In this document: positions 1-43,344 of the stretch, in pieces
Position numbering within the stretch: the stretch's first letter is position 1
Layout of the letters: each line of letters begins with the position of its first letter
NCBI GenBank assembly: GCA_903856085.1
Contig: CAIOAT010000047.1
Span: 148,634 to 191,978 of the forward strand
Reading direction: 5' to 3'
DNA length: 43,345 bases
From: Candidatus Omnitrophota bacterium
Lineage (GTDB): Bacteria; Omnitrophota; Omnitrophia; Omnitrophales; Aquincolibacteriaceae
The notes under the pieces: generated by a model
What the model was told of the DNA's origin: nothing
Database searches by the model: none
The model's input: the letters and a program-made list of their open reading frames with translations, nothing else
Program-made: the position numbers and the translations under genes

Positions 1-2535
1 GCCGGATGCATCCTGGGCGCTGACGTAATTGCCGAAGCCATCATTGAAGATATATTTTCCGGCGGTCGTCTGCGTAACGGTATAGATCCGCCCGTCCAGA
101 GTCACCGTATTGACGGCCTCGCTTCGATCCGTGGCAAGCGACAGCCCCACATGTCCCTGCGCGTCATGCGTAACCCGGTAAGTCTTGCCGTCGCTCAGCT
201 GGACCGTTTCGGTGAGAGGATCGCTCCAGAAAGTCTTTCCTCCATCGATAAAACGATAAGTCCCCAAATTGGCATTGCTCTTTAGCTGCCACTTCATCTC
301 CGTAAAGGTCGCCACTCCGTCGGTGATCGTAACCTTGTACTGCGCATCGCCGATCTTGACCTCGCTCCCCGACACCACCTTAGCCGCGATCACCACGCCA
401 TCGGAGCCCTTCAGATTTGTGAGGATCGTGCCGCTCCCCTTGAACGATAGAGACCCATACCCGGAAATATAAACGTATGCATTCGTCCCCGGCACAGGCA
501 CGGTTTCTTCTTTATAGAGAGCATCTTCGGGGCTCAAGTATTCGCCGGTTTCCTGGGCCACGACAACCTCACGGCCCGCGAGTTCCACAATCGATGCATT
601 GGAGCTTTGGCGGCCACCGGTCCTGATCTCGATCTCATAGTCTTCAAGATTCGCGCCGGTGGGATGAATAAGGTAATCCTTGCCGTTGATCGTCGCGATG
701 CCGTCGACAAAGACCGTCTCGCCGCCAGCCGTGATAAACCTCACGGGATTGGTCGTATAGGACTTTGTCCCGTCGGACAATTCAAAATAGGGATTTTCAT
801 AAACATACTCGTTCAGATTCGAGTCCCACTTGTAGTTATACTTGTACTCCACCTTGTAGATCTTGCCATCGATGATCACCTGAGCATATTGGTTATGTTT
901 CTCGAGAGGAAGCACCTCGTAATCCTCGGTGAGCTTCACTTTCGTGCCGTCCAACGTCACCGTGTAACGGTGACCCGACAGATCAATCGTTTGCTTGCCT
1001 GCGGCTATAACAGAATCGTAAACAAAGGAGAAGGAAGCCATATCCCTCAGTTTGATCGTGCCGTCAGGATTGACCGTACTCTTGTAGGATTTCCCTTCAA
1101 CCTGAACGATATTTTCGCCGAGGAATTGGCTCGACAGCGGCGACTCGCTCGTAAGCGACTGCACCTTGCCGTTCGCCACCGTCACGTTATAGACCACCCC
1201 GTCGATCTCCACTTTCAGCACATTGCCGGCGAGATACGTCCGGTAGGTCTTGTCCACGATCACATAGGATTGCTTGAGGAGATAGCTGCCGTCCGTCGCC
1301 TTGACCACCGAGAAATATTTGTCTCCTAATTTAAGGTCCGGCGTCTCATAGCTATTCACCTGCCGCGGGGCAATATTAACATTCGTGGGATCTTTCGGAT
1401 CGAGGATCAGGTCGTAGGCGTTCCCATCACCCAAGGTCACGGTGTTCGCGTACGGATTGCTGTCATAGAGCGACGGATAATACGACGGCGCGGAATAGGA
1501 CACCGTGCCGTTATTGTCGTCGAATTTACGAATCCACTGGACATTGCGGCGCGCGACGCCTTCGTCGACGGTGTAAGCCCCGGGTTGTTTTTCAGTAATG
1601 ACTTTGATCCCGGCAACCTCGAGCCCGCTCGCCGACCGGTGGGTCGTAGCCACCGTCTCAAGTTTCGGCCGCGACACTCCAGTCTCAACCACGATGTTGA
1701 AGCTGTACAAATGTCCGTGAATGTTCACGCTCTTCTTGTCCCCGCCCACGACCTCGGACATCTCAGGAACCCATGTTTGAGCGTTCTGTCCGGCAGGCAT
1801 ATCAAGCTCGAGAATAAAATACCGCGTGCCTCCTGACGTAATAGCCTTCACGATACCGTACCGGGGCAACACGCCTGTAGCAGGGTTCACATCTCCAATC
1901 GTTGCGACGCCAAACAGGCAAACATCTCCGTCGTTAGCGCAGGTCGTGACTTTCTTCCCGTTGAACTCGGCTATTTTGAGCGTCTGGTTGCCCACCTTAA
2001 CAGTCGTCTCATAGACATCCTTATACTTTGTCTCACCTTGCTTATTGATCCCGTTAGGTTGAGAACCGACCCACAAACCCGTAACATCAAAAGTAACGGT
2101 CGCTACCTCAGCAGGTGTCTTGGAACCAACCGCCAGTTCCTGCTCAGTCAACACATACTCCTTCGTGCCGCCGTCCTGCGATATTTCATAATCGTAGCCG
2201 TTGATCCTGACCGCGCCGAGCACGCCGCGCGAGATCTGCTCCGAATTAGGCGAGGAACCGACGATCACTGGCGTCGCGGGATCCGAATCCGTGAACCGAA
2301 AGAACGTATCTACCCCTCGCGAGATCTGATAGACCACGTCATCGACCTTAACCAGATCGCTCTTCGCCACCGAAACATCCGGTGTCGTAGCAGCCTCGCG
2401 GGCGATCGTATAAGTGCCGGTTGACGGAACATTTTCCAGGATATGCCACGTCGACCCGTTCAGCTTGAAAGTTTTCGCGACGTTATCATAATTATAGGCA
2501 TCCGGATTTTCCACAAACGGCGTGATCTTCCCGGG
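1..2535 (-). repeat. Beta-repeat array G, running off the C-side edge
   Basis: About 845 residues of two-part beta repeats: VVYQISRGVDTFFRFTDSDP, VRINGYDYEISQDGGTKEYV, VEIDGVVYNVTVANGKVQSL, VQVEGKSYKSTVNPDGTIKL, VTLDGRIYTVTQTTAGKYIF. A cysteine pair (CANDGDVC) lies near 1,930. The last visible unit is intact at the window edge and gives no sign that the protein is ending. Confidence 0.78.
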
Positions 2536-8500: not shown

Positions 8501-11500
8501 GCGTCGATCCCTGCACAATAGTTCCCCGTATCGTTACCTAACCCGAGATCTTGTTTCGCAAGGTCAGAAGCCGAAATGCCTTCGAGCGATGTGAGGCGCG
8601 TGAGGTTGACAGGTCCGCTCTGGACAGGCTGTTCGATATAGTAAACGCTGTAACGATCGCTCCCCGCGGGAATGGCCAGCATCGTCGGAGAAACACTGAA
8701 ATATTTCACTCCGTTCGCCTTCTTGAATTCATAAAGCCCGATCGAACAGCCGGTCACATCATTGTCGCTGCACTTACGGACTGTGAATTCGACCTCTGAG
8801 GAACCGTCCCACAAGTTGACCTTACCCAGCTCGTTGGTATTCGTCGTAAAGATTTGCGAGCTGACCTTAAGACCGGTCTTGTATTCCACCAGCGAAATAT
8901 TGACCTCAGGGTTATGCGTCTGGATACCGGCCATGCCTTCGACGATCGCATATTGCACGCCGTCGAGTGTCACTTTGCCGGTTTGCGACACAACCGCATC
9001 GGCACCGTTTGAGAACACATATCCGCCGTTCACCGCTGTTACGTTGTAGAACTTTGTCCCCGCCCTGAGCACTTGCCCGTAGGACGTCACAGACGGCGCG
9101 GGATAAGCGGCCGGGTTGATCTGGAACTTGTTCAAAAGATCGTCCCATTTGTAGCTCAAGCCGTCGGGGAAGGTGAAGTACTGCCCGTTGCCTTTTGCTT
9201 TGAGTAATTCGTCGAGGTTTACCTGGAAATCATAATTTCCGAGACCGTCCTCGGAGACCGGAATGAGCGCTCCGCTGTCCGAAACTAGGTACGGCGTGAA
9301 AGTGAAAACGTAGCTGCGGAAGGCCTGGCCGTCGGCCGACGAGGTGACCGGTTCATAGGCAATGCGGTAATATGCGCCGTGGATCATGACGAAGTCCGCG
9401 GAAATGCTCCGGTCAACCTGTTCCTTCAAAGTGATCTTGCCGGTGGCTTCGTCCTTATTAACCGTGTAGCGGACGCCGTCGATCACGACATATTCGCTGA
9501 GGTCGGTGGCGGCATTGAGGCGCACCGCCGTCATGGTCTTGGCATCCGTCAAAAGTGACTGGTCCAGATTCGACAGGGTTCCGTCCTGGTTGATATCGGC
9601 CGCCAAAAGTTCGCGCAGCTTGAATTCACCTTTCGCATCATCAACCAGGATCTGATATTTCACGCCCTGGATCTCCACGATATTCGAACCGTAAACATTA
9701 CTGTAACGGTGTGAGCCGTCATCGAACACGAAGTAGTCGATCGTCGACGTCTTTCCTCCGGTGGTCGCGACGCGCCTCGAAACACGATAAGGCTGACCGT
9801 TCAGTTCGATCACAAACTCAGGCTCGGAAATGGACTCATATTCCGAAAGGAACGAGCGTGACAGGGTTACTCTCTGGGTCGAGGGATCCACCGCAATATC
9901 GTAGGCAACACCGTCGATCAACACCATCCCGCCGGTGGCCCCGATACCCTTTTGGCCGGTATAGATCTTGCCGGTCACGGTGTCCACGAACTGATACGAT
10001 CCGTCGTCCTGTTTCACGACGCGGTATTTGTTCTGTCCCATCGCGATCACGCCGTCGGCCACCCGGACGCTCTCGGCCTTGATCTTCTTAAGCGTCACGG
10101 CATGCGTGACGGGATCCACAAGGATGTTATAAGTAACGCCCGCGACTTTGATCCTCACATTGGTGTCGCCGGGCTCAACAAAGCTGTAATTATCCGCATG
10201 GCCATCATTAATCTTCCATCGGGGCTCATTAGCCGTCGGGCGGCTGACGTAAAGGATATGGCCCTCGATCTCAAGAGCCATATCAAAGAGCGGGTTACTC
10301 TTTTCGGCATACTTGGAGAGAACAAGCGACTGCAGGTTCACGAGGTCCTTCACTTCCGAAACGGTCTGGAGATCTTTCTCGTTGATCTTGCCGTCGCCGT
10401 TCACATCCCTGGCCTGTCCCAGGGAGTTTTTGAGTAGGAGCAGGTCCGCCATGGTGACATCACCGTCCGGCTTTCCGTCCGGGCCTCCGGTAATATCGGC
10501 AAGCTTAAGCTCTTCGGCCGTGGGCGGCTTGATCGAGGACCATTTGATCATGTCCAGAATGAATTGGTAATCGGCCTGATCGACAGCGCCTAAGGCATCC
10601 TCATCGACGTTCTGATAGGCATCAAACGCGGCTTGCAGGAGTTCCACATCCTTGTCATTGACCAGACCGTCCTTGTTCAGATCTTTTTTCTCGATCGTCT
10701 TGGTCTGCTTATTGAAAAATCCGGCCTGAATCAAATTGACGGCTTGCGTGATCGAATCGACATCCTCCTGGGTGGCCTTCCCGTCACCGTTGTAATCGAT
10801 CTTCTTCCAGGAGAGATCGCCGGTGTCGTTCAGGACTTTGGTAAGCGCCTCATAATCCAACTGCGTCACGTCGCCGTCCGGTATACCATTCGCGCCGGTG
10901 ATATCCGCCTTCGCCAATTCATCGCTCGTGATCTGGTAGGAGAAATACTTCTGCCATTCTTGGAGACGGGCCATGTCCGTGGCATCCACTTTCCGGTCGC
11001 CGTTAATATCGATGTACCGGCCGATGGAGTTCTGCAACACGGTCTTGTCGAACTGATTGATCACGCCGTCCTGATTGACGTCCGCTTTTGTCAACTCTTC
11101 ATCGCTCACCGACGTGAACTTCATCAGCTGATCGATGGTCTTCTTCGCGATGCCGTATTCCGTAGCGTCGACCGTCCCGTTCCCGTCGAGGTCGAACTGC
11201 ACAAAATCGAACAACTCGGACAAGGTTTGAGCCTGTTGTGTCTGCTCATTCACGACCGGCTCGACCGCGGGCGGCTTGATATTGAGCACGTCGGCCATAG
11301 TCTTCAAGTTGGCTACTTGGGCGTTCGCCTTTGCGACTGGATCTACCAGGTGATCAGGATTAAGCACAGTGTCCACGGCATCCGTAAAGATCTCTTTCTG
11401 TGCCGCGCGCTGTTTGTCCTGAAGATCCGTCAGGCTCCCGAGCCGCGAGCCATAGGCATCCAGAAGATCATTAAATTGCGTCGTCTTGGTGTCATCCATC

Positions 11501-14500
11501 TGGAGCTGCTCCGCGAGCGTGATGACATTGTTCGCGTCTTTGGTGATGAAGTAGAAGTGACCGTCGATCTCGACGGTCTGGGTCTGGAGATAGCTTTTGT
11601 AGGTATGCACACCGTCGGTAAAATCGACCACAAAAGAAGTCCCGCTCGTGGAAACATAATAGCTGTAGAGGTGGTACTTACCGTCGAGGCCGAGCAACTT
11701 AATGGCCTGTTTGTATGAAGTGTCACGATCCGATGAAGAAACCTGTTTCGCGCCGATCCGAAGGCTCTTATAGCCGCTTCCATCATCATGGACCGTGTAG
11801 GTTCTGTATTTCTTTATAGTCTTTGCGCCATCCGTATAAGTCCCGTCCCAGATATTCACAGAACCGCTCAGGACGTCATAGTTATTCATGCCGTCGCTGA
11901 AGTGGTCAGTGCCATCAGACCAGTAAGTCAAAACCAGATTCACCACATTCGCCGGATTGCTGTCGTCTTTAAGAAGCAGCCACTGTTTCCCGGAACCCTG
12001 GATCGTCTCGGTTAGGATATCAGGCGTCGTCGTGAGCGTGGATGCAAAGCTATCAACGCGTTTAATGTCCGCATCGATGGCTTTGGCGTCGATGATCTTG
12101 GACCACGTATTCTCCGCGAGCGCGACATCCCTGTCATCGATGACTTTGTCACCGTTAGTATCCGCGGCGTTTGTCATGGCAAATTTCATCAGATCCAGAT
12201 CCCGGAGCGAGAAATCCCCGTTATGGTCAATGTCCGCCTGGGCCGCATCGCGGATCGAGATCTCGTCGCCCGTGGTGATCTGTTCCTCGGTGTGGTGGAT
12301 CATGCGGAGGTCCGCATCCGAGATCAGGCCATCTTTATTAACATCAGCCTGGGTCAGCAAGGTCGACAGAGCGCTCTTGGCACCAGCACCGCCTGCAGTA
12401 GCCGGTTGAGTTTCCCCTTGAGATGCTCCTCCCGCCGCAGCAGATTTTGAATCCGCAGCCGCCTGCAGCTTTTCTAAATAATGGAGCAGGTAAACGTGAA
12501 CATCGCTCAGGAGCTTATAGGCATTTGGATCGCCGTTTTTCACGGCCTCGCGGTAGGCCTTCACAGCATCTTCTTCGGGGTCGACAACGCGCTCTGTTTC
12601 ACCCGTTTCCGCATTCACCTTATCGATCATGCCGGTGATCTTGCCGTCTCCGTTCAGATCCAGCCTGGTAAGATCATCTTTGCTGATCGGAACGTTCATG
12701 GCTTTTATCTTCTCGATGCGCGCCGCATCATTCTCCGTAATGAGCTGATCGGCGCTGGTCGATATCAGCTTGCTACGGGCATCGGTGATCATCTGAAGGT
12801 CCTGTGCATCAATCTTGAAATCGTTATTGACGTCGTAACGGTCGAAATCTTCGGGGTTCAGGATGTTGGAGAGCGGCTCCTGGGTCTGAGCAAGAATATT
12901 CCTGACAAGCTTGACGTCGAGCTCGTTGAAGACGCCGTCCGCGTTGAGGTCGTAATAGCTGTTGTCGCGCACGCCGAGCGCAAATTTGAAATAATCGACA
13001 TCGCCCTGATCCAGGTAATCGAACGTGGTCGCCTGTCCCTGAAGGATCGCCTTCTCTTTGTATCCCCCGTTAAGATCGCTTGCCTGGAGCTTGGCGAGCA
13101 TGTCGCTATCCAGCGATTGACCGAACCCGAGTTTACGCAGCAGCTGATCGATCTGCATCATCTGATCGACCACCGCCGCGTCCTTGCTGTTCGCGGCCCC
13201 GAAGTCAATGATGCCGTCCCCGTTCATGTCGGTATGAGCGCGGATCACCTGCTTCATCTGATCTACATCTTTTTGATCGACGACTTTATCGCCGTTCACA
13301 TCGTATTTGAGATAATCCTTCGGCGCCAGGATCTCGCGGTTGGTGATCGCCTGGCGGACCTGGTTCAGCATGGTGCTGTCCTTCTCGTCCACCTGTCCGT
13401 CGCCGTTCAGATCATAGGTCGACGTTTCGCTCAGGCGCTTCGTGATCAATGCGATATCCTTGTCATCCACGGTGTGATCCTGGTTGATATCGGCCGCGCT
13501 GATATCCTTTTGCGTGATCCCCTGAGAGAGAAGATCATTGTAGGTCAGGATGCTCTGGATCCGGTCGATGTCCTTTTGAGTCACGCGGCCGTCGCGGTCC
13601 ACGTCGACCGCCGAGCTCTTGAGATCCGCGAAAAGGCGCGTGTCATAATCGATGAATTCCTGGGCCGCGGCGATCACCTGGTTCTGCGAAGCGATCTGCT
13701 TGTCGAGTTCCTGAAGGTCATTGAAATTGACGAAGCCATCTCCATTGGCATCGTATTTCATGTATTTTGCGACCGACGGGATACCCTGGTCCATGAACCA
13801 CTGGATATTGGCCTGGAATTCTTTCTGCTCATCCGCGCTCACATTTCCGTCACCGTTCAGATCCACAGCAGGAGCGGCTTTGAGCATGGCTTCAAACGCC
13901 GAGACATCCGCATCATCCCACTTCCCGTCGCCATTCAGATCCGCCAGCGCGTGCGTCTTGCTGCTGATGCCGAGGTCATTTTTCTTGATGATCTGCTCAA
14001 GGACCGCCTGGTCCGTGGTGTCGACCGTCCCGTCTCCGTTGATATCGACATGCGCGTCGAAGACCGCTTTCAGGGCCGTAACATCGTCCTGCGTCAACTT
14101 GCCGTCCTTATTGAAATCGAATTTGTTGAATTCCTCCATCGTGATGGTCTTGGAGCCGCGAACAAGCTTTTCGAGATCCACAATATAGGTGTAGTCCTCG
14201 ACTGAAATCACGCCATCGCCGTTCTGGTCCCAAATCTTCAGGTCGGCTGTACTCTTCAGAGAAGGATCTTTCAAAATACCGTCATAATAAAATTTATAGT
14301 AAGCATTCACGTCATCGCTATTGAAAACGCCATCTCGGTTGATATCCGCCTTCGCGACAGCCTGCGGCAGTGCCAGATTATTCTGCCCGATCATCAAAAG
14401 GATATTCTCGAGCGAGTTGACATCGGTCGTGCGGTCCTTCTTCCCGTCCCCGTTCACATCGGTAAAACCGTATTGATCAAGCGAGGCCTTAAAAAGATCC

Positions 14501-26500: not shown

Positions 26501-29500
26501 GAAACATTCGTGGGATCCTCGAGGCTGAAAGCGGTTGTGGAGTGGTCGTCCGGATTCTGGGTGCGGCTCACGAGATAAAAACTATCGCCTAATTCAAGCG
26601 CGGTCCTGTTGTCGGCAATAGCCTGGCTCCGGACAGCCTGAGCCTTATACAGTTTCACATCGCCGAACGGATCCACTGCGACCGTATACACCTGACCTTT
26701 AAGGGTCACTTTTTTATCGGTGACTGTGGCCGACTCGTTGGCATCCGCTGCGTTGGTGAATTTCGACGGAAAGCCGTCCACTTTTTCAACCTTGAAAACG
26801 GACGTCGCGAAGGTTCCAGGCGGATTCTCGGTCCGGATCTGAACAAAACGGAGGTTATCATCCACCGGGGCGCTCGTGGCGGCCAGGCGCGAGATCTCGA
26901 AATCCTTACCGGTAACGGCGTAATTAATGGAGTATTTCTTGCCTTCAATCTCGATTGTGCTGAGATTCATTGCAAACGTGTACGCTGTGTTCTTTTTGGT
27001 ACCGGTGAGTGCAGTGAACTTGATCTGGCCGGGAGCCGGCGTCGTGGTCAATACCGTTTGATAGAGCACGCCGTCCAGATCCACCGCTTTGACGGTCGCA
27101 CTGGCTGCATTCTTCGTATCGTAAGGAACCAGCTTGAACTGCCCCGTCGCTGGCTGATCCTTCAGAATCTGGAAATTCCCCTGAGGTAACAGCACTTTGT
27201 CTGTGGCCGTCGTGACAGGGGTTCCGGTATTATCAAGACGAGTGAAAGTCGTGTTACCGGCGGCGGTGGTGATCTGATAGAACACACCGGCGACATTCAC
27301 CACAACTCTGCTGTCGCTTGTCGAGGTTGCACCGATCGGATAAAGCTCCACGTATCCGGAAGCCGCCGCAACAACCTTATAGGCCTGACCCCGGATCGTT
27401 ACTTTTAGATCCGCGGCGGTGGCACCGGCGGACTCTCCGCTATTTGCCACATTCGTGAATTTATATGCGAAGCCACCCGTATTGGCTTCGACTTTGAAAT
27501 ATTGACCGCCCAGGCTCACAACTTGGGCCACCGTGGCGAGATTGGCCGGGATCATCTGGTTCAATTGAATATCGCCAGAAGTATTCACGACTTCTATTAA
27601 GTAATCCGTACCGGAGATATTGACCACGCCGGTGGAAGCGTTGCTTGTCGCTAAAACCTGGGCACTGGTCGGGTTCTGAAATTGATACGCCCCTCCGACG
27701 GGCACCACCGCATAAGAGGTCCCGCCCACGCTGATCAGGCGCTTGGCGCCCTTGGTGGAAGTATCCGGAATAGCAGTCAGGGTGATCACGCCGGCAGTTT
27801 CGCTGATCTTATAAGTTTTTCCGCCGTAAACAATCGCTTGAACCGAAACGCCGTCGACGGTCATCGCAAAGGACTGGCCATTAACGGTCATCGCACCGCT
27901 CTTGGGAAGCAATGCCCCCGTCCAAGCGTTGGTGAATACATAATTAGCGCCGGGCTTGTTGACCGACCAGACGGTATTATCGCTCAGCTGAACCATGGCC
28001 TGAGTCACCTTCGTAGCAAAACTCGGTGATTCGACGGCCCGGACAACGCCCGTCCCATCTTTCGTGATCTGGAAATTCGCCCCGTCGATTGTAACGACCT
28101 CGACGCCGTTTTGAGTCGTCGTCGCCGGCAGGGCGGAACCCGACTGCCGCGAGGTCAACGTAAAATGGCCGCTGACGGGACCCGTGACGTCATAAGCGAT
28201 CCCCTTCAGGAAAACGGTGATCTTGCTATCGTCCGTGGGCTTGGCTACGAAAGACTGCTTTTCCAGGGAGATCTCTCCCGTGGCCGGTGCGTCCATGCGT
28301 ACCTGATAAGTGTAGTTGCCGAAATTCGTGAAACGGACCGTACGCGTCACGGGTTCGATCACATAAAAATCGGAGACGTTGGAAATATTTTGCATCTTTG
28401 CCGCGCCGGTGGCCGCATTGGTGACAATGTATTCATAAATGCGCACATCGGTCGGATCGGAAGGATTCACAAGAACGACCGCCTTCTTCCCCTGGGCGGA
28501 ATTCCTGAGCGCTTTCGCGTCACTCAGGCTTTTCCCGGAAAAGAGCGCGGTGAGTTCAGCATCGCTCAAACCGTTCAGCCATGCGATCGTGGTAGTGTTC
28601 GTCGTTTCCGACAAAACTCTCTTATAGTCGGCGGCATCGATCACGCCGTTCTTATCGAAATCATACGTGGCGTTATAACGCGCGTCGGCAACTTCAATAT
28701 TGTTGACGGTCAGCGACAATCCCGCACGCGGGTCGATCATTTCAAACCGGACGTTTTGCGTGCCGGTGATCCCCAGCGTTTTCAGATTCACTTTCCTCTC
28801 GCCCCAGATCCCGTCGGTACCCGTCGGCGCAAAGGAAATGGTCCCGACGGAAACGCCGCCCACAAACACTTCGAACCGGTAGGATGTCATTCCCTGCGGC
28901 AGGGTTGCGGCAGCATTCATTCGGAACACATACTCCCCACTACCATTAAAGTTAAATGTAGTGTCGATAAAATATTTGCGCCCGTCATTCACGAAAGGAT
29001 CCAGAGCGAACTGACCATCGCCGGATTTTGTGAAATAGGTAGTCGTCGCGCCTGTCGTGACATTCACCGCTGGAAGAGTGCGGGCGCCGCTCGCGGCTGC
29101 GACAAGGGCGGCATCGCGGTAATCGACAAAATTATTCTGATCCGCATCCGTCAGGAGGACTTCCCAAAGGGTGATCTTGTGGTCCGCGGACTCGACCACT
29201 TCGTAAGTGTTGTTCAGTTGCGCGGGAGCATTCGTAAATGTGACAAGGCCCTGCGCGTTGCTGCGGTAGGTTTCGACGCCGGACGCCGAGGACCGCCAGA
29301 AGGTGAATGTATTATCCGAATTCCGCGACGCAATATAAACATTTCCGTCCAAAGTCACCTTGGAGACATCTGCGCTCGACGGCATCAGGCCCTGCAAGAA
29401 ATCGAGGTCCTTGAAATCGACTTTGCCGTCCACAACCAGGTCCGCATCGGCATCGAACGGCTTCGCCCCGCTGATGATGTCGAGCACCCGCTGAACATCG

Positions 29501-32500
29501 GTCGCATCCACAACACCATCGAGATTAACATCGGCGCGGCGATTCTCGGTCAGGGTGATCACACCCGCAACATCGAAAATGATGTACTGGATGGTACCGA
29601 TCGTCACGAGCTTGCCGGCCGCATTGCTGTCGGACTGGACCCCGTCCTTGTCGATAAAAGTGTAAGTATTGTCCCAGTTGCGGCGAGCCGCGAGCTTGGT
29701 GGTATTGTCGCTCATCAGCACCATCTGGATCCGATTCGTATCGGGCATTCTCTTTTGCATCAGAATAACGTCGTCATGATTGACGAGCCCGTTCCCGTCG
29801 AGGTCCGCGGTCTTGGGGATCCTCGCATCCTTGAGATAAACTGCAGGGAGAGTGAACCTTGCCGCAGCGCCAAGATCTCCGCTGTTGTCCCATTCCAATG
29901 TAACGCTATGCGCACCGGGCTGGGACAGAAGCATTCGGAGAGAAGTGTTTTGCAGCGAAGCCGAATTTCCCACAAACCGAAGATTCCCCATTTGAGCGCC
30001 GTCAACTGTGACCTTGAAATCAAAATTGTATCCACTGGGGACACTTGACGGAGAACTCTTGAGGAAATCAAGCCCAAGATCATAGTACCCCGACTGCGAG
30101 ACATTGAAATTATAGGTGACACCCGGCAATGCCTGTCCGGCGGGAACATTGGCGATCAGATCCGTCCCTGGCTTAGTCCAAAGCGCGGAGCTGACGGTGC
30201 CTACCGACCCGTTCTGGCGGGCGGAGTAGAGCAAATAATATTGAAGCATGAGTTGCTTATCCACGTCATTGACCACGCCGTCCAGATTAATATCCGCATC
30301 CTGCTTTTCGCGGAGGGTGATGGTGTTCGTGTTGATATCATCCACGATGATGTAGTCTTTGCTGTTCAGAGTGATGAACTTATCGCCGGGCTGTGTCACG
30401 GTCGTGATGCTGCCCGTGCGGGCGGCATAGCTCCCGTCGACGTTCCGCGTGATGACGTAGGAATTGGCACCGAGATCTGTGGTGGTCATGCGGCTGGAAT
30501 TGGGAACCGCCTGTTGCCAAAGCGCAAGGTCCTTTTCATCAACAACCCCGTTCCCGTCCATGTCATAAGAGGCATCCACTAGCGAATCGCGAACAAACAT
30601 TCCGCTCAGTTTGAAGCCCGCAAGACCGGTGGTCGGAGCCGTTTCGGCCGATGAGAATTGGGATTCCGCAGGATTGAGCCACTTGATCGAAACCGTGTAA
30701 TCCCCCGCCATATCGAACGGATGCTCGACACTGACAAAGCTCGCCTTATCCTGCGAGACAGGAACGCGCACGGTATAGGTTTTACCATTGACCGTCACTT
30801 CGAATTCAGGGCGGTATCCGACGAAATTGGCCGCGGCGATCTGCTGCATAAGGAAGCCGATCGTGTACGTTCCTTCCGCCGGCACATGGACCTTGAAGCT
30901 CATAAGCGACTTGGCATCCGCATTCGCACCGTTCACAACATAGCCAAGACCGTCCAACTTCCAGCCGCTTTCGCGCGTTGCATAACTGCCGGCATCATAA
31001 TACTGCTGGGGATAAAGGGCCTGCGTGACGAGATCCTCTTCATCGCTTTCGTCAACCATGCCGTCACCGTTTGCGTCAGCGATCGTCTTTGCAATCACCC
31101 GGAAATTACCCGTGGCGCTGTCGGTCGTGATCAGATAATCCTGACCTTCAAGAGTCACATGCCGTCCGTCCGTCGAAGTCGCCGTCTTAGTCCCGGAATA
31201 AAAATCAAGCTCCCCGGCGAGGCCCGAAAATACGGTCCAGGTCGTGGTACCAACGGTGACCGAGCGATACGCGTTCTCGATCGGCGACTTATCAGCCCAT
31301 GCCTGGTAATCCGCCGAGTTGACGATCCCGTTCTTATCGTAATCCGCCGCAAGATCAACCGTGGATTTTCTCAGCGATACCTTCTGGAGGAGGAGATCCG
31401 CCCACGGCACAGTGGCCGGCGCACGCAACATATCAGCCGCATTCGTCCATTTGATCCGGATATCCTGGTGGCCGCTCGTCAGGTACACCTTGGTCGACGC
31501 GGAAGCGGTTGTGGCGGAGACTGGAAGTCTGACTTTCGAAGTCGTCTGAACCGTCTCGCCGTTCACCAAGGCTGAAGTGGTCACTTCAAATTCGAAGAAG
31601 CTCGGATCGAGACCGGTATAGTTGAGACCGCTTTTCGCCTGTTTCGCGAGGAAGCCGAAATCATAATAACCGCTGTCCGCCACATCAAAACCATAGGTCA
31701 GAGTCCCGTCCGACTTGCTGCCCAGTATATAAAGACTCGAGCCGTCCGAGAACGGGCGGACCGCATCGGGCTTGGTCACATAATCGGCGGCATTCTGGAT
31801 CTGGTTGTACTGCTGCGCCTGGCTCTTCAGATATGCCAGATCGGTTGCATCCACCTTGCCGTCGGCGTTCACATCCGAGTCAAGCCGCTCAGCGAGCGTC
31901 ACTTTGCCCTGGGCATCCGTCAAGATCACATATTCCTTTGTCACAGAATTGACCGTCAGGGTTACCGTCTCGCCGCCCACGCTGTCAAACCGGTTGGCGC
32001 CGACCCAGAAACGATAGCTGGGCGGCACGGTATCATATTTATTCACCACCACATCGGAACCGCCGAGCTTAACGATCTGCATGCGGCTCGAATCCCCGAC
32101 CTGATCCTCCCAAGCCTTGAAATCCTCGGATGTTATGAGCCCATCCTTGTCCCAATCAAATCCGGACTTGTATCCGCCCGCCGTCACGAGGATGCGGCTG
32201 AAATCCTGCGGCGTATTGGCCGGCAGTTGCCCCGGATTCAACCATTTAAAACTCAACGTATGATTCCCCTGCGTCAGGAGCGTCTCAGCAAAACCGGTGA
32301 TCATTCCTTTACCGTCGGGCGTGCCAACAAGGGTCATGGGCGGCGACTTGCCGTCCACAGTGACTTCATAAAGATAACGGGCACCGGGGACAGTGGCTTT
32401 TTCGACCAATTCCAGGCCAATCCGGTAGTTGCCGGATTTTGATACCTGGACCGAGTAGTCGACTGTTTTGCCGGAGTCTTTCGTGTAAAGATCCTTGCCG

Positions 32501-35500
32501 TTTGTCGAACTCCAATCCGTTGTGGCGGACCCGAAATTTCCGGTCTTGGCGGAATAATCGATGGCGTTAATGGCGTAATCTCCGCGGCCCAACTGAGCCG
32601 TAAAAAGCGCCGAATCGTTCATGTCCGTGACGCCGTCGTAATTCAGGTCGGTCGTCCGATGCTTGACTATCTCGACAAGTCCGGTCTGCACATTTTTACG
32701 GACAATGTACTCCCCGTCGGCGAGCGTCACCGTTTGCACAGTCCTGTCATCTACCGAGGTCACGGTATTCGTTTTCTGGACAAGATTGCCGGAGGCATCC
32801 TTCACGAGGAACGCCGCCGGGACCGTGGCGAACGGTTCCACATAATAATTCTGACCGTTCACGCTGATCGTCTGGATATCGGGCGAAGCCTTCAACCTTT
32901 GAAGTTCCGCGAGATCCAGCGCGTCGACCAGGCCGTCATGATTCAGATCCGCATAGGCGTTGATCAGCCGGTCCTGGAATTTCAACGACGCAATGTTGAG
33001 TATTGAAGTGTCGCCCGCTTCACTGCCGTTATTCCATTCGAGCGTCACTTTATGCGAGCCTTTCACAAGATCCAGGACGAGGGAATCCGATTTGAGGCCC
33101 GCCTTGGACGCGGTAATATCAAGAACTCCCGCCGGCTTGTCGTCGACGGTAACCTTGAGGTGGAACTTGTAGCCCGGGATCAAAGCGCCCGCCGAGATCT
33201 CCTTGGCGAAAACCGACAGGTCGAAAGTTCCCGTGTAGTCCGCTTGGAGTTGATACGTCAGGGCTGTTCCCTGCGTGGTCACGTCGATCGAGCGACCGTC
33301 CGTGTCGTAATGCCAATTCGTGTAATTTCCTGCGTTGGAAACATTTGCACCAGGAATCGATTCAGAAACTTTGTTGAATTCGGCAAGCAGCGCCGTGCTG
33401 TCCAACGGATCGACCTTGCCGTCAAAATTGACGTCCCCGGTCAGGAGCTCCGTCAGGGTGACGTGGCGCGACTCACGATCCAGGTGAATGATGTAATCGA
33501 CTCCGCCCAGAGTCACAACCTTCCCCGTAGGATCGCTCGCATAAGCCTGGGCTCCGTCCGTAATCGTAAAGGTTCCGTCCATATTGTCGAGCAGGAAGTA
33601 ATTCTTCGCGGGAGTCCCCAGCGTAAAGGCGAAGAGCATGGAGGTGTCGGCCCATTCTGTGAGGAAGCGGTTTACGTCCTTCGCATCCACCACTTTGTCT
33701 CCATTGATGTCCGCGCGGGAATCAAAAGCGACCAGATCGTTGATCTTCATATCGACGTTGGCGCCGGCCTGCCAATCGAGAGTAAAATAATGACGCCCCT
33801 GGGCAAGATAGACCGGCAACTGGAGAAGACCGGAGTTCGATTTGAAATTTTCGAGATTCACGACAAAACTATTATTGTAAGATCCATCGACGAAAACCTT
33901 AACCGTGAGCGGCTGCGCTCCGGCGATGATCTTCGAGTTCTCCGCCTGGACTCCCACGTAGTAGTAACCGGCGCGATCGACGTCCATCTCATACTTTTGG
34001 GGATCCGCCGTCACATCCCCCTTCACATAGGGATCTTGCAGGAGGTAACGCAAGAGCTCCGCATCGCCGTCGTCAATCTTTCCGTTTTTATCAAGATCGG
34101 CAGGCAGGTCGTCCACAAGCGTTATCTTCTTCGTCTGCGGGTCGATTTGAATAATGAAATTCTCCGTCCCGAGGGTGACCTTGTTCCCCGAGCTCAGATA
34201 CTTCACGATCCCGTCTGCCGTGAAGGTGTAGGTACCATCCATATGATCGACCACAAAGTAGGCCTTGGAACCGACCTGGATGCGGTCCACATTCAAAGTG
34301 GTCCCGACCTGGCTCTTGAAGATGGCGAGATCGAGATCATCGGTGAATCCGTCGCCGTTCAGATCGCTGCGGTGGTCGGGTGAGCGGCCGAAGAATTCCG
34401 AAACGCGCAACTGGCCGGAGGTGTTGTGGAGCACGAACTTGATACTGTGCATGCCGGATTTCAGAAGCGCCTGGGCAAACGCCTGCGTTTTCCCGAGGGC
34501 ATTCACCGTAGTCAATAAATCGTTATCTACATAAATATCCACGCTAACACCGGTCGTTGCCGTTTGGGCAAGGATAAGACCCAGTTCGTACGAGGCGTCG
34601 TGCGTCGCGTCAAAATTATACTGGACCTCAGCGGTGCCTCCCGTCATTTGGATCGCATCTCCGACGACGCTAAAGCCGCTGCGCTCGATAGAATCAATCC
34701 CTTTCTTGCGCTCCGCGCCGTAAACACGGTTGGCCTTGATCAGGGCAATGTCGTTGATATCCACCACACCGTCTTTGTCCATATCAGATAGCATATCCTC
34801 GACGAGCTTCAGACCACCCGTAACGGCATCCTTGACCAGAATAAAGTTTCCGGCCTGACCGACAGTAACGCTTGTGCCGTCACGCGCAGTCTCAAAAGCG
34901 ACCTGACCGTTTTCAATGAATTGATACTTCCGGTCCACGGGATCGTATTTCACACGGTAAGTCTTACCCAAGAGCGTTATTTCCTGGACGGCCAGCGTGC
35001 TGCTCGTTTTGGGCGAGTTCTGGTAAGCGATCACATCTTTGGCGTCGACCCGGCCGTCCAGATTAATATCGGACATATAGAAATCACTGCGCTGTTTCGC
35101 GATCGCGCGGAAGGCCGTAACGTCATCAACGGTGATCTTGTTATCGTGGTTCAGGTCCGCATTTTCGTCAAAATCTTTTTCGCGGAGAACGAAGTTATCG
35201 ATCTGGACCGACGAATAGATCGTGTGGTCGGAATTCGTATCGTACTTGAACCCGTGCGGGTTCGTTACGCTGTCATAGGCGCGCTCGCCATACTTGAGAA
35301 TGTAGCAAGCACCGCCGTCGCAGCCATCATCACCCGCTGTATTCGTCCAAACAAACCGGATCGCATGAGCGCCGGCCGCAAGCGCGACATTCTGCAGGTA
35401 AGCGGCGTTATATTGATAATTGCTTCCCTGGATCGTGATGTGACCGAGAAGCGTGCTGACATTATTAAAGGTGTCGTAGACATCGAACTCATAGTTCCCC

Positions 35501-38500
35501 GACTTGGGAAGACTCAGAGCATCCAGCGAACGGGCCGATATGCCAAGGTTGTAAAGCGCACCGGTCTTTCCGGAAGGAACGGTCGTGTTGAACGTGAACG
35601 AATACTCGGGATCAGCCGAAGCTGAAGTTCGCGCATAAAGCGAAGTGCCGTCGCGCAGGAAATTGCTGAGCACCGTCGCGGTGGACGCCGTGGCCTCGGT
35701 CTTGGTACTTCCGAGGATCGCCTGGATCATCTTTTCGTCGTCGAGATTGCGGTTGCCGTCCCCGTTCATGTCGCCGCCCTTGAAGAAATTGACGAGATTC
35801 CACAAGGACGCCAGATCATCGGCTGTGACCTTATTATCGCCGTTCACATCGCCCCGGTTCACCATCGGCTTGCTTGCCGCACTTTTCGGGTCTGTGCCGC
35901 GCGCGATTTCCTCGGCATCGCTGAATCCGTCACCGTCGCTGTCCGCTTTGTTAGGATTCAATCCCAACGCGCGTTCATCTTCGTCCGTCACACCGTCACC
36001 GTCGCTATCCGCTTTTTGGATCGCAACCGTCGACGGTACGATCGGCTTGCTGTTTTTATCCAGCGGATTGGTCTGTTTCATCAATTCTTCGCCGTCACTA
36101 AAGCCGTCCAGATCGGAATCAGCCTTGAACGGATTAGTTCCGGTTTCGACCTCCTTTGAATCCGAAACGCCGTCTCCGTCCATATCAGACTGACCTAAGG
36201 TAGCGCTGACCACTTTATTCGTCGGATCCAACAAAGCTATCTGGTCTCCAGCTTTTACGATCTTGTAAGTAGTTCCGCTGATCACAACCGTACCGCTCAC
36301 CGTTGAAGAATACAGGTCAGTCCCGATCGACAACGTATAAGTACCCGGGCCGGCATTAAAGGTGTACGTCAGGATCTTGTTCAGGGGCGAAAAGAACAGC
36401 TTCGGCTCCGCGCCTTCCCCGGTCGTCACTCCCACAATATTCCCCGCCCCAACCTGCAGCGATACCCGGCCGTAAGCGTCGGGCGCCGTGATCGTGTAAT
36501 TAACACTGCCAATCGAAACGGTTCGTCCGGCAGCGTCGCTTCCGGTACTCTTGTAGGAATTAGTGCCGTCGTTGAAAACATACTGGCCACCAAAGAGGTA
36601 GTAACGAAGGTCTTTGTCTAACGGCGTAAACTTCATGAGGTGCGTCGGCGGAGGCATGGAGGTTGCGCTCTTGGGATCGGACCCAAATGCCGTTTCCTCG
36701 GAATCTGAAAAGCCATCGTTGTCCGAATCGCCCCAGACCACACCGAGAGGGTTGGTCCCATTAATAGAATCTTCGAGGTCGCTGTAACCATTCCCGTTTG
36801 TGTCAGCCTTCATGGGATCCGTCCCCATCAAAACTTCTTTGGCATCCGGAATCCCGTCACCGTCCGAGTCAATGAGCGCCGGGGCAGGACGCGAAGAGGC
36901 GTCCATGGGATTCGTGCCGCTCGTTTTTTCTTCAAGATCGCTAAAGCCATCGCCGTCAGAATCCGCGACATCCTTATAAGTTCCATTGGTGATCTCAACG
37001 CTATCCGGAACACCATCGCCGTCAGCGTCACCGGTCAAATTATAACTCGGCTTGCTCGAGGCATTACGCGGATTAGAACCCATCTTCACCTCTTCCCCGT
37101 CGCTAAAACCATCGCCATCCGAATCTGCGTGAAGTGCGCTGGGGACTGTGAAAGTTCCCACCAAAGCAGTAAGGCTGTCCGGAGAAAGCGTCTTGAGAAA
37201 TTCCAAATTTGACAGAGAATTCAGGTCCGCTTTTGTGACACCCGGAATATTCAGAGTCTGCAGAGCGATACCGGCCAGGGCATTCCTTAACGCGTCATCC
37301 TTCAGAGTGGTGCCGAGGACTGTCAACAGCGCCGCGGTCGTTGCAACATCTGCAGCGGGAATATTTCCTGTGATCAGGCCGGCCCCCTTGAGCGCCGTCA
37401 CCAGCGCAAGGAGATCACTGGCCTCGAGAGATTGAAGCTTTGTCGTTGAAAGGTCGCTCGCAGTCAGGCCGTTGATTTTAAGTTGGCTGAGCGCCGTGGC
37501 GGCCAATGCCTTTTTCAGATCCACGCCCTGGAGTTGGGCCAGAGACTCATCGCGATCCGTGATGCCGTCACCGTCAGTATCCTGGGTAAGAGCCGTAATG
37601 ACCTTCCCGGGAATGCTCGAGGCCAAATGCGGGTTGGATCCGTTCTTGATCTCATAATTATCGCTAAATCCGTCATTATCGCTGTCCGGAGAGTCAGCGT
37701 TCAACCCGTTGGCGATCTCAAAACTATCGGATAGCCCGTCCCCGTCCCGGTCGGACTCAACCGCCGCGGGCTTCGAGTTGGCGTCCAACGGATTGTAACT
37801 GTGGGCCATTTCCCAACCGTCGCTGTAGCCATCGCCATCGGTATCCGGCTTCGTCGTATCAAGTGCCAACGAAACCTTCACGCCTCCGAGCGACAGAGAA
37901 ACGCGACCGTAGATGTCCGCATCTGTGATCGTATAATCCTTGTCGCCGATATGCACCGTGAGCTGCCCGGCCGCGGTCTTGTACTGATTTACCCCGTCCG
38001 TAAAAGTATATATTTTCGTCCCCGAGTTATAAGAATACGTGAGATTTCTCACCGGTTGCTGGGTCGACAAAGTCTGAATTGCCGCAAGGTCTTCGGCCGC
38101 CGACTCATATGCCGCGGAAACCTGTTGGGGTGCAAGCAACTTGACGGCTGCTAAGATCTCCGCCGCCGACTCATATGCCGCAGCATCCACGGTGCGATTG
38201 GCCTTCGCGGCATTGTAAGCCGTTTGTGCCGCAGCAAGGGTCATTCCGGAATCGAGAGCTTGCGCTAACCTCTCCAGGATCTTCGCGTCCGAAACCGCAA
38301 GCGTACTGAATTTTTTGCCGGTCTCGATTTCGACATCCTTCAGGGGCGAAAGCAAATTTGCTTTTGCAGCCGACAGATTGGTATTCGCCAAATTATAAGC
38401 GTCTGCAACCGACTGCGGGACCAGGGCCTTAACGGCCGCCAGAGTTTCAGCTGCCAACTCGTAAGCCGCCGCATCCGCAGCGCGATTTGCTTTTGCCGTA

Positions 38501-41500
38501 TTGTAGGCCGTTTGAGCTGCGGCAAGCGTCAATCCGGAACTGACGGCTTGATCCAGGCGTTCGAGAATCTTCGCATCAGAAATAACCAGACTGCCGAACT
38601 TGACGCCGGTTTCAATGTCGACATCCTTCAACGCCGTGGCATAGCCCGCTTTCGCCGCCGCTAGACTTCCGACCGCCGTGTTGTAGGTCGCCAAGACCGC
38701 TTTGGGAGACAGCCATTTGACGGCCGCTAAGGTTTCGGCCGCCAGCTCGTAAGCGGTGGGATTCGTGGCTTTGTTCGCCTTCGCCGCAACATAGGCTGTT
38801 TGCGCCGCTTCGAGCGTTATTCCGGAATTGATCGCCTGAACCAACCTCTCCAGGATCTTCGCGTCCGAAACAGCAAGGCTGCCGAATCTGACACCGGTTT
38901 CGATCTCAACATCCTTGAGCGGCGCGATGAAGCTTGTTTTGGCCGCCTGGTACGCAACCTGCGCCGAAGCCACCGTCGCCCCCGAACCCATGGCCAGCGT
39001 CAACCTTTCAAGGATCTTTGCGTCCGTAAACCCAAGAGCGCTCAGTTTGACCCCAGTTTCAATGACGACGTTCTTCAGCACATCGATCGAAACCCCAGGC
39101 AAGCGCAGCATTTTCATGCTGGCCTCGTCGTTATTATTGATACCGTCGCCGTCGCTATCGCCGGTGAATAAGGAGATCGCGACGGAAAGCAAGTTCACGT
39201 CCGTGGCATCGATCACCCCGTCTCCGTTAAGATCCGCTTTCTTGCGAACCTCCGGGTCCACCATGGAGAGAAATTTCAGCGCGGAGGTATCCACGATGCC
39301 GTCGCCGTTAATGTCGGTACCTTGAAACAAATTCGCCAGAGTAGCTTCGTCCACCGAGCTCAAATTTCCGGAACCATTAACATCGAAGACCTCGAAGAGT
39401 TTTGGATCGATGCCCTCCGGAAGATCACGGGCATCAAACACCCCGTCTTTATTACGGTCCAGAAGATCGAACAGCTTGGGAGTCAACTGGAGGTCGGAAG
39501 CGAGAGCCAACATGAAGAAGTCCGTATTCTGCGAGGACTGCAACGCCGAAAGGATCTGCGTAAGATCGTTGTAGTTGATCTGGTCGTAGGGCGTCGTGGG
39601 CGGATTGCTGCGGACGACTTGGTCGTTGTTCAGATCGATCGCGCGGATCCAGGAAATAATATCCTGATCCTTTGTATTGACGCTCAGGTCCTGATTGATA
39701 TCGGTTTGCTCGACCTTGGCGCGATCCGCTTCAAATTGCACCGCTTGTTTGAGCGTGTCCATGCTGATATTCTCATTGAAATATTGCAGCGCATTCTTGA
39801 GGGCCGCAACGTCTGCCGCATTCACCTTGCCATCGCCGTTCACATCGGCGGCCCGCGCCCGGTTTTCCGCCAAAACGCTATCAGCCACGGCCTTGCGGTC
39901 ATTAATCGTATCGATCTTACCATCCCCGTTGATGTCTTCGAGAACGGTCTTGTAGCTGGCGTCATAGATCACCCCGACCACTCCCTGCAAGAATTGCGAC
40001 TCGGTTTTCTTGCTGGCCAAAGCATTTTCCTTATCAAACTTCGCCTGCCGAGCCGCGATCCAGGCCGTTTTGAGGGTCTCGTAATTGGCCTCGATCACAT
40101 CATGTGCAGCCTGATTGATTTTCCCGGCCTTCAAGTCGAGATCCGCTTGCCACGACTTGGCCGCCGCATCCTCATAAGCAAGCGTCGCGCTTGCATAGAC
40201 GGCGTTAGCCGTGGTCAGATCCGCCTGCAGCTGGGTCACGGCAAGATTGCTGGCCGTGGAGTTTGTCTTCAGCTGATCGATGGCTTTCAAAGCCGCCAGG
40301 ATTTCCGCATTCGCCTCGGTCTTGGAAGAATTGTAGGCGCTCTGCGCAGCGTTTATCGTCATCCCGGAGTTTTTCGCCTGGATAAAGCTCTGCATGATGT
40401 TGACATCGGAATAGTTCTTCGAAGCCAAGGTGACTCCTGACTCGATCTGAGTTTGCTTCATCTGAGCAAGGATCGCTAACACATAATCCATACGATCCAG
40501 ATCCGCCTGATCCGTCGTGCCGTTTTGCGTAAGGTCGCTTCTGTGGACCGTGATCTCGTTACCGATGAGCCCCCGGATCACGGCCAGATCGGCGTCGTCC
40601 ACTTTCTGGTTCTGATTGAAATCGTACGAGGGCGAGATAAACACTTTCTCGATATCGATGGAGGGGTAGCTCTTCTGGACGTTCTTGCCATCCCCGAGAA
40701 GATCATACTCGCGATAACCGTCCTGGACATTGGTCCAGACAAATTGCAATGTGTAGTTGCCGGCGCTTAGATCGGCGGTGAGTTGGCCCGGCATGAACGC
40801 CGCCTTGCTACCATCCACGATAAAGGTCCCGAGGCTCGTGAACTGAGTCGCCGTAGCCGACTTGATGAGCACCTTGAATTCGTAATGATAGCCGTCCGGG
40901 AAATCATCGGTATTCAAGCTCCGGGCGTTCAGGCCGACATCGTAGCTTCCCTTTTCCTGAACCGTGAAAGCCATATCAAAGGATTTCGTCCCGCCGCTTT
41001 TCTCCGCGCTGATGCGGGTCCCGTCCGTGGGAACGGTAAAGCCCACCAGGTTCGTAGCGGAGCGTCCGTCCTTGACAGACGCCACCTGATTTTTAAGCGA
41101 ATCGACCAAGGCAAGATCGGAGGCATCGACCACGCCGTCAGAATTAAGATCCAACTCGTTCTTACGGAGGTTGATCTGACGTACATATTCATAGTCCGCA
41201 AAGGTCACATTGCCGTCGCCGTCGACGTCCTTATAGTAATCCTTAAACGCGTTATAAAGCGCGATGTCCTTGGCGTCAAATTTCTCGTCGCGATTGATGT
41301 CCGCGTTCTTGAGATCGTCGAGCGTCAGCGCATCATGCGTTTTCTTGAACATGCCATAGATCCACTGAACATCCAAGTCATCGATCGCCGAATCGCCGTT
41401 AAGATTCCTGTAGTACGTAAGACTCTTGTCCACGCGCGCGACGTCGTAATAGCACGCGCCCGTCGAACAACCGTTCAGCACGTTAATATTTGCCACGATT

Positions 41501-43344: not shown

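Follow-up and report, generated by a model that had tools for sequence, protein, structure and literature searches.

A bacterial open reading frame of at least 39,033 codons in an Omnitrophota genome, with repeat modules, two ATPase domains and a C-terminal module shared with giants of related genomes

What kind of gene is represented by a stretch of bacterial DNA in which a single reading frame has neither beginning nor end? The window analyzed here is 43,345 bases long and forms the final part of contig C47 (191,978 bases; G000:C47:148634-191978) of an Omnitrophota genome assembly of 2.36 Mb in 50 contigs. Its high edge is the contig end and its low edge falls in mid-gene. An earlier note on this DNA had described a minus-strand frame open over about 14,448 codons, with no start or stop. 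Indeed, window bases 1-43344 (minus strand) contain 14,448 codons without a stop in this frame, as compared to 685 and 592 stops in the other two minus frames. The window edges lie in or beside repeats, as also described there: a dockerin-like loop, recognized by eye, occupies the 5' edge, and aa 14412-14444, at the opposite edge, match the beta repeat. The same note had deduced that the gene exceeds the window, and the frame does continue outside it, reaching 39,033 codons from the contig edge before a stop at C47 74876-74878, 73.8 kb away from the window. The extension in both directions that had been proposed thus reached the stop and no start, since the contig stops at the high edge of the window, short of the 5' end of the ORF. 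The window therefore holds codons 1-14,448 of at least 39,033. The claim of a very large bacterial gene turns out to have been modest: the ORF measures at least 117.1 kb, above the 20-kb mark used for Omnitrophota-type giants, and represents 5% of the assembly, with a predicted product of ~4,233 kDa (about 4.2 MDa).

The window is a portion of one genuine bacterial gene, at least 39,033 codons long. Over the 123,345 bases read in all, stops number 1,865 and 1,741 in the other two minus frames (~41,115 codons); with more than 4% stops per codon in these frames, the open run of 39,033 codons does not arise by chance. The contig ends inside the giant gene, which is what an assembly artefact fusing several genes into one frame could look like. 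This alternative is nevertheless extremely improbable: not a single exact 30-mer occurs twice within the ORF, which makes a repeat-driven artefact unlikely; codon-phase GC is kept along the whole ORF (per full 3,000-codon block, GC1 53-61%, GC2 35-42%, GC3 61-70%); and in relatives of other species, complete giants have a single frame running from a signal-like start through an ATPase to a similar kind of end. To note, frame 1 of the window plus strand, antisense to the giant, contains 90 stops in 14,448 codons and hence many long mirror ORFs, as expected from codon bias. No Rfam family reaches its gathering score in the 123 kb.

Residues are numbered from the contig edge, not from the true start, and the Pfam scan covers the whole ORF bar two residues across locus borders. 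A product built of repeats had been announced from the letters of the window, and adhesion-type ones are found: Dockerin_1, TSP3, F5/8C and beta repeats. The Pfam matches to Dockerin_1, TSP3, EF-hand, F5/8C and PF06439 fall mostly between residues 1 and ~21,300, with a few dockerin/EF-hand matches extending to ~24,700; residues 21,200-28,900 are alanine-rich. Dockerin_1 matches in the ORF stand above the profile cut-off, and a dockerin search of the genome (E 0.01) returned 71 matches, 64 in the giant ORF and 7 on contig C32. Purpose-built profiles detect 99 copies of the beta repeat (58-position model; ~71-residue spacing where tandem), of which 60 fall in the window. CBM-like sandwich modules number 19 in the ORF and 12 in the window; for the PF06439-like modules, the figures are four and three. 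A single shuffled giant, used as a control, gave zero beta repeats and zero sandwich modules. Cadherin (PF00028) gave no match.

From the contig edge inwards, all on the minus strand and in window coordinates, the protein begins with two PF06439-like modules identified by Pfam and profile. The one at 42613-43107 (aa 80-244), 3-keto-disaccharide-hydrolase-like, is probably a LamG-like sandwich; the other lies at 42052-42552 (aa 265-431). They are followed by dockerin/EF-hand-like loops (four overlapping Dockerin_1 matches, 41611-42006, C47:190244-190639), the first CBM-like β-sandwich module (40729-40983, aa 788-872, profile) and the best of ten bacterial TSP3 repeats (PF18884, Pfam; 37066-37125, aa 2074-2093). 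Between 34986 and 29545 (aa 2787-4600), supermodules alternate in the order beta repeat, EF-hand loop, CBM-like sandwich, EF-hand loop, the repeat and sandwich being detected by profile and the loops partly by eye. Further along are a tandem beta-repeat array (25924-28209, aa 5046-5807, profile; spacing ~71 residues), an F5/8 type C domain (discoidin, galactose-binding-like; 22969-23256, aa 6697-6792, Pfam), a second long beta-repeat array (17878-22923, aa 6808-8489, profile), a third PF06439-like module (15058-15564, aa 9261-9429, Pfam and profile) and a dense cluster of dockerin/EF-hand repeats (10360-16290, C47:158993-164923, Pfam and dockerin search).

One supermodule (32665-33618, minus strand, aa 3243-3560) has been modelled from an 18-row alignment of the giant's own copies, with a mean pLDDT of 73.4. 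The predicted structure superimposes on 2w47 (Z 14.2, rmsd 2.8, 125 residues) and matches CBM35, CBM6 and CBM36 structures, with domains of Cry proteins lower in the match list (Z 12-13). As modelled, the sandwich module is a β-sandwich of the CBM35/6/36 superfamily fold, and sharing a fold by itself shows no function.

No catalytic domain had been recognized in the earlier note. This stands within the window but fails beyond it, where the same ORF encodes a SecA-type ATPase, a second SF2-like ATPase, a GNAT domain (Pfam, residues ~38,530-38,620) and HExxH motifs. These modules, of intracellular type, are located past a hydrophobic cluster. A plain hydropathy scan detects 12 hydrophobic stretches in the ORF, the strongest at residues 32,265, 32,302, 37,040 and 37,297, and four of the stretches fall within 32,265-32,560. 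Across this cluster, from aa 1-32,264 to aa 32,560-39,033, the net charge per 1000 residues shifts from -44.8 to -17.8, the Tyr content from 4.2% to 1.7% and Ser+Thr from 15.9% to 11.3%. GNAT enzymes, which use acetyl-CoA, are expected to be cytosolic. Two stretches, both recognized by eye and with no Pfam match, resemble leucine-rich repeats (aa ~32,700-33,350) and ParB/sulfiredoxin (aa ~35,060-35,110).

The SecA-type domain is recognized by Pfam at residues ~33,940-34,480 (SecA_DEAD, 1.7e-33; P-loop_SecA; SecA_PP_bind) and matches SecA structures at 1.2e-45. Aligned with the separate canonical SecA of the same genome, it exhibits intact motor motifs (TGEGKT, DEAD, GMTGT, GRGTD and GRAGRQG) and the LHQAxEAKE stretch. 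The C-terminal zinc motif (CxC...CC tail) and the later scaffold are absent, and the NCBIfam SecA equivalog scores 226 bits, far below its cut-off of 814. By alignment, the domain is 35% identical to that of the same-genus giant G002:C59, in which the motor motifs are also intact, and 26% identical to the genome's own SecA. The latter shares 51-56% identity with the best eight of at least 80 ordinary SecA loci. A SecA-type match, mostly ordinary SecA, is found in 51 of the 58 genomes searched; six of the genomes (own, G002, G024, G026, G038 and G041) together contribute nine ORFs, 1,176-39,033 aa long, that exceed ordinary SecA in length and do not resemble it.

The second ATPase occupies residues about 35,600-36,400, with a P-loop at aa 35,692 (APTGFGKS) and the motifs GFGKS, FDES, TSAT and QLLGRLRG in this order. 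It is not matched by Pfam or NCBIfam, bears no sequence similarity to the SecA profile, and finds nothing meaningful in a PDB sequence search (best E 0.61). In Pfam, the G002 copy gives a weak ResIII/DEAD match, below cut-off, and three other copies give nothing. A single-sequence search retrieves only the giant's own genome (1 of 58), whereas a two-row profile reaches ten ORFs, 1,376 to 39,033 aa long, in 9 of 97 genomes. Nine sequences could be aligned, with 14-19% identity to the giant's copy: the DE pair is conserved in all nine, the P-loop in the eight that cover it, and the arginine-rich last motif in five, the others ending before it or not aligning there. Since the pairwise match with the G002 counterpart reaches only E 0.049, kinship rests on the aligned motifs, the profile search and the fold. 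The structural model is poor overall (mean pLDDT 45.5) and fair only over its first ~250 residues; of the two RecA-like domains expected in an SF2 helicase, fair confidence is reached for the first alone. The first ten Foldseek matches are mostly SF2 helicases, none under 1e-3, and VIA-align superimposes the model on DinG (8s36; Z 14.5, rmsd 4.0, 203 residues), the best 50 matches listed being mostly named SF2-type ATPases. Both ATPase types are present in the giant studied here; the two neighboring giants of G002 harbor one type each.

A further shared feature is located at the very end of the protein. The last ~350-390 residues of this giant and of the two G002 giants align at 28-31% identity. 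A profile of this C-terminal module identifies 15 places in 10 of 97 genomes; three belong to ORFs of at most 356 aa, the other 12 to ORFs with lengths of 1,670-39,033 aa. A second profile, covering only the tail and built from the last 80 residues of 13 giants, finds 22 places in 15 of 97 genomes (E 0.01), 13 of them being the seeds themselves; 17 are in ORFs of at least 1,670 aa and five in ORFs of at most 110 aa, one of which (G005) enters from the locus edge. Twenty-two C-termini were compared, from 21 long giant or giant-like ORFs and one 1,514-aa neighbor, many of them picked by profiles that include this end: all terminate in AA or SA (18 in AA), and 18 harbor an HExxH motif, positioned 221-274 residues from the end in 16 cases. 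The module has no Pfam peptidase match above cut-off.

The ends of giants reached through their ATPase domains provide a comparison. In genomes other than G000 and G002, seven such giants are seen as far as a stop not shown to be broken: six end AA (G041:C6, G038:C15, G038:C33, G011:C225, G039:C26 and G039:C4) and one, G014:C56, ends SA, which counts against the C-terminal claim; G041:C6 and G014:C56 afterwards became seeds of the tail profile. HExxH is present in the last 500 residues of five of the seven, G038:C15 and G038:C33 being devoid of it, and G038:C33 is possibly cut by a frameshift. This count leaves aside G024:C63 (ending ...ED, with unread bases just before the stop) and G026:C9 (ending ...AFL), both overlapped by another open frame running to the contig edge, as well as G026:C36 and C117, which run off their contigs, and G038:C12, G022:C172, G037:C64 and G082:C24. 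Among control ORFs, which were delimited mechanically and are not all genes, 1 of 168 C-termini (ORFs of at least 150 aa, own genome and G002) fits the AA tail pattern. For two sets of longer ORFs, 0/74 and 6/662 end AA, 1/74 and 13/662 end AA or SA, and 0/74 and 6/662 possess HExxH in their last 300 residues. Six of six against 1 of 168 gives a Fisher p of 2e-10, with G014:C56 not counted and relatedness ignored.

The tail is not confined to giants, since a 1,514-aa protein of G039 with a signal-like start, adjoining a giant (G039:C4:119163-123704, L262:3163-7704), also ends AA. Short ORFs consisting of the tail only occur beside giants or apart from them (G002:C59:30613-32394, L064:10613-12394; G016:C11, L257 and L258) and look like displaced remnants. 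The tmRNA tag of the genome ends FAA, and 21 of the 23 tags scanned end AA; the giants' tails share only their last two residues with these tags, and an ssrA-like degron stays a guess. The tags themselves are long in many of these genomes (often 24-27 residues; L228:1503-1898 and loci of relatives), and those of the closest genomes display a SWNERAxGP core, e.g., AEKTSWNERAVGPVTVPTPFALPFAA.

What appears to be new here is this C-terminal module, often with HExxH, and the AA tail common to the giants of related genomes. Among the papers listed by literature searches on giants, no title or abstract opening describes a shared C-terminal tail or HExxH module, and the 2023 preprint cited below may do so. 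It is conceivable, if rather doubtful, that giants unlike along most of their length carry one C-terminal cassette recognized by a dedicated machine, and that this cassette moves between giants and leaves remnants behind. It would comprise one or both of the ATPases (SecA-type and second SF2-like), in many cases an HExxH domain, and a tail of ~25 residues with Ala-Ala at its end; the machine might serve, for example, for processing, retraction or turnover by an AAA+ protease.

Because the start of this giant lies beyond the contig edge, its export is argued from the signal-like N-termini of its relatives. Giants were found at 18,673 aa (complete, G002:C59, adjoining a 9,521-aa giant cut at its 5' end), 23,704 and 21,284 aa (G039), 12,698 aa (G003), and 5,372 and 4,828 aa (G038). 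A signal-like hydrophobic N-terminus is present in all six relatives' giants with an intact start, a count that omits G003:C65 and G028:C6 (frameshift-like breaks) and the giants cut by contig edges. In four of the six (G002, G003:C21 and two of G039) the hydrophobic core is followed by TQ.D or TS.D. The idea of one common N-terminal signature (TQ/TS.D) was dropped, as G038:C15 and G038:C33 are signal-like without it. Several giants or their neighbors possess an HIQ.AH.NY..Q.NI stretch after the signal-like segment (G038:C15, L068:4400 on; G038:C33, L069:18618 down; G039, L261/L262).

The missing 5' part was sought at contig ends: both ends of 12 contigs, the starts of 10 more, plus C47, C32 and the start of C44. 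The terminal 300 bases of C47 have no counterpart elsewhere in the genome. One candidate for the 5' part of the giant lies at the end of contig C32, where an open frame of 1,232 codons encodes seven dockerin matches and, by eye, a signal peptide. This frame may instead be the start of a smaller protein, to judge by its similarity, in parts, to a protein of G003 that is complete at 1,416 aa and to the open frame starting contig C44 of the same genome. The absence of TQ/TS.D does not disqualify C32, because the signature is found in only four of six intact starts. Just upstream of its dockerin protein, C32 encodes a peptide-type ABC importer (L073:10522-15674). The C44 frame (L092:3-5198) is open at its 5' side over 1,732 codons, contains a nearly repeated segment and is 57% identical over 227 residues to part of the C32 protein. 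On contig C24 (L307, bases 1-3000, minus strand), one open frame runs off the edge; it exhibits near-identical internal repeats, an RHS-repeat match below the Pfam cut-off (21.6 vs 22 bits), and 45% identity to residues 392-618 of the complete 18,673-aa G002 giant. From this resemblance, it may be the 5' part of the giant or, equally, belong to another giant of the same genome.

Taken together, a slight preference goes to a product that would be an exported, surface-held giant adhesin equipped with a cis-acting cytosolic motor module. The calcium- and glycan-binding type modules and the beta repeats would form a long rod holding glycan-binding heads off the cell. The N-terminal arm would be threaded out through Sec, and the hydrophobic cluster would stop the transfer, leaving the C-terminal module inside the cell. 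SecA drives protein through SecYEG. The ATPases may act in cis on their own giant, completing its export, pulling or retracting it. The C-terminal HExxH domain and tail could serve for its processing or turnover. The role of the whole would be attachment to another cell or to a surface polysaccharide, as proposed for Omnitrophota giants.

The main rival, which we consider unlikely, is that the C-terminal part is a delivered effector: the arm would bind a target cell, and the HExxH, GNAT and ATPase segment would act in or on it, as in polymorphic toxins, with ends exchanged between giants. The content preceding the shared end does differ between this giant and the two G002 giants, and the tail-only short ORFs, found immediately downstream of a G002 giant and at two places in G016, recall displaced cassettes. 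The RHS-repeat match of C24 points the same way, as do the effector modules of Amoebophilus, which include SecA-like helicase-related domains according to excerpts of PMC3482391. A further point in favor is an 82-codon frame on the same strand that starts ~245 bases after the giant's stop. The nearest recognized genes lie beyond it and are convergent (YqeY, Bat-type VWA/TPR, then DnaK), the Pfam scan of the ORF found no known toxin domain, and two SF2-type ATPases would make a heavy warhead; all three points speak against delivery. Less likely still, the whole protein could be a surface coat or stalk in which the ATPase and GNAT domains are dead fusion passengers. Binding and spacer modules do make up most of its length, and an extracellular coat has been proposed for the V. 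archaeovorus giant in the excerpted text of PMC10066038. The SecA motifs, however, are intact in this giant and in that of G002, and the second ATPase keeps its DE pair and P-loop at 14-19% identity, which is not expected of dead sequence. The surface-held adhesin with its own motor remains the preferred reading.

Viewed against the known Omnitrophota giants, this one is not special for being giant; its paired ATPases are unusual, and the interest lies in its shared C-terminal module. According to excerpts of PMC10066038, several Omnitrophota classes commonly encode ORFs above 20 kb; the giant of Velamenicoccus archaeovorus LiM, 39,678 aa long, is predicted to contain 42 helices; discoidin domains occur in Omnitrophia giants and dockerin domains in a giant of Aquinicolibacterium lacustre; and conservation is poor in most Velamenicoccia giants, which have few domain annotations. 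With 39,033 codons and no start, the present ORF is close to the 39,678 residues of V. archaeovorus and may exceed them. Huge proteins have been surveyed (PMC11573180), and PMC12057145 cites a 2023 preprint (West-Roberts et al.) for giants whose length reaches ~85,800 aa. Omnitrophota giants have been described as poor in annotated domains and hard to interpret (PMC10066038, excerpts); a common C-terminal module and tail offer a handle. They provide a profile for finding giants by their ends, and a small piece open to expression and testing. They also raise the questions of what recognizes the Ala-Ala tail and of whether a giant is moved by the ATPases built into it.

The individual parts each have a familiar counterpart. 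The SecA-type domain shares with the SecA preprotein translocase its motor motifs and the LHQAxEAKE stretch, but it sits inside a giant ORF and does not possess the C-terminal zinc motif. The second ATPase resembles the DinG, RIG-I and DEAD-box SF2 helicases in the fold of its first ATPase domain and in its motif order, whereas Pfam does not recognize the giant's copy and, among the 97 genomes, its kind is confined to ORFs of at least 1,376 aa. With CBM35, CBM6 and CBM36, the sandwich module has in common a β-sandwich (Z about 12-14); at 7-17% identity among the structural matches listed, this likeness is one of fold only. By analogy, the exchangeable C-terminal ends and displaced remnants recall polymorphic toxins, Rhs and CDI systems, from which the giant differs in having no recognized toxin domain and no immunity gene among its recognized neighbors. 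Most of the giants of the 2023 preprint are reported to bear divergent SecA DEAD domains and many transmembrane regions, and a divergent SecA DEAD domain is present here too. The closest counterparts are the Omnitrophota giants themselves, and the likeness suggested in the earlier note is upheld by the excerpts of PMC10066038: the size class, discoidin/dockerin domains and, in the giants described there, many predicted membrane helices and a large extracellular part. Compared with what those excerpts describe, the present giant stands apart by its SecA-type and second SF2-like ATPases in tandem, its C-terminal module and its AA tail.
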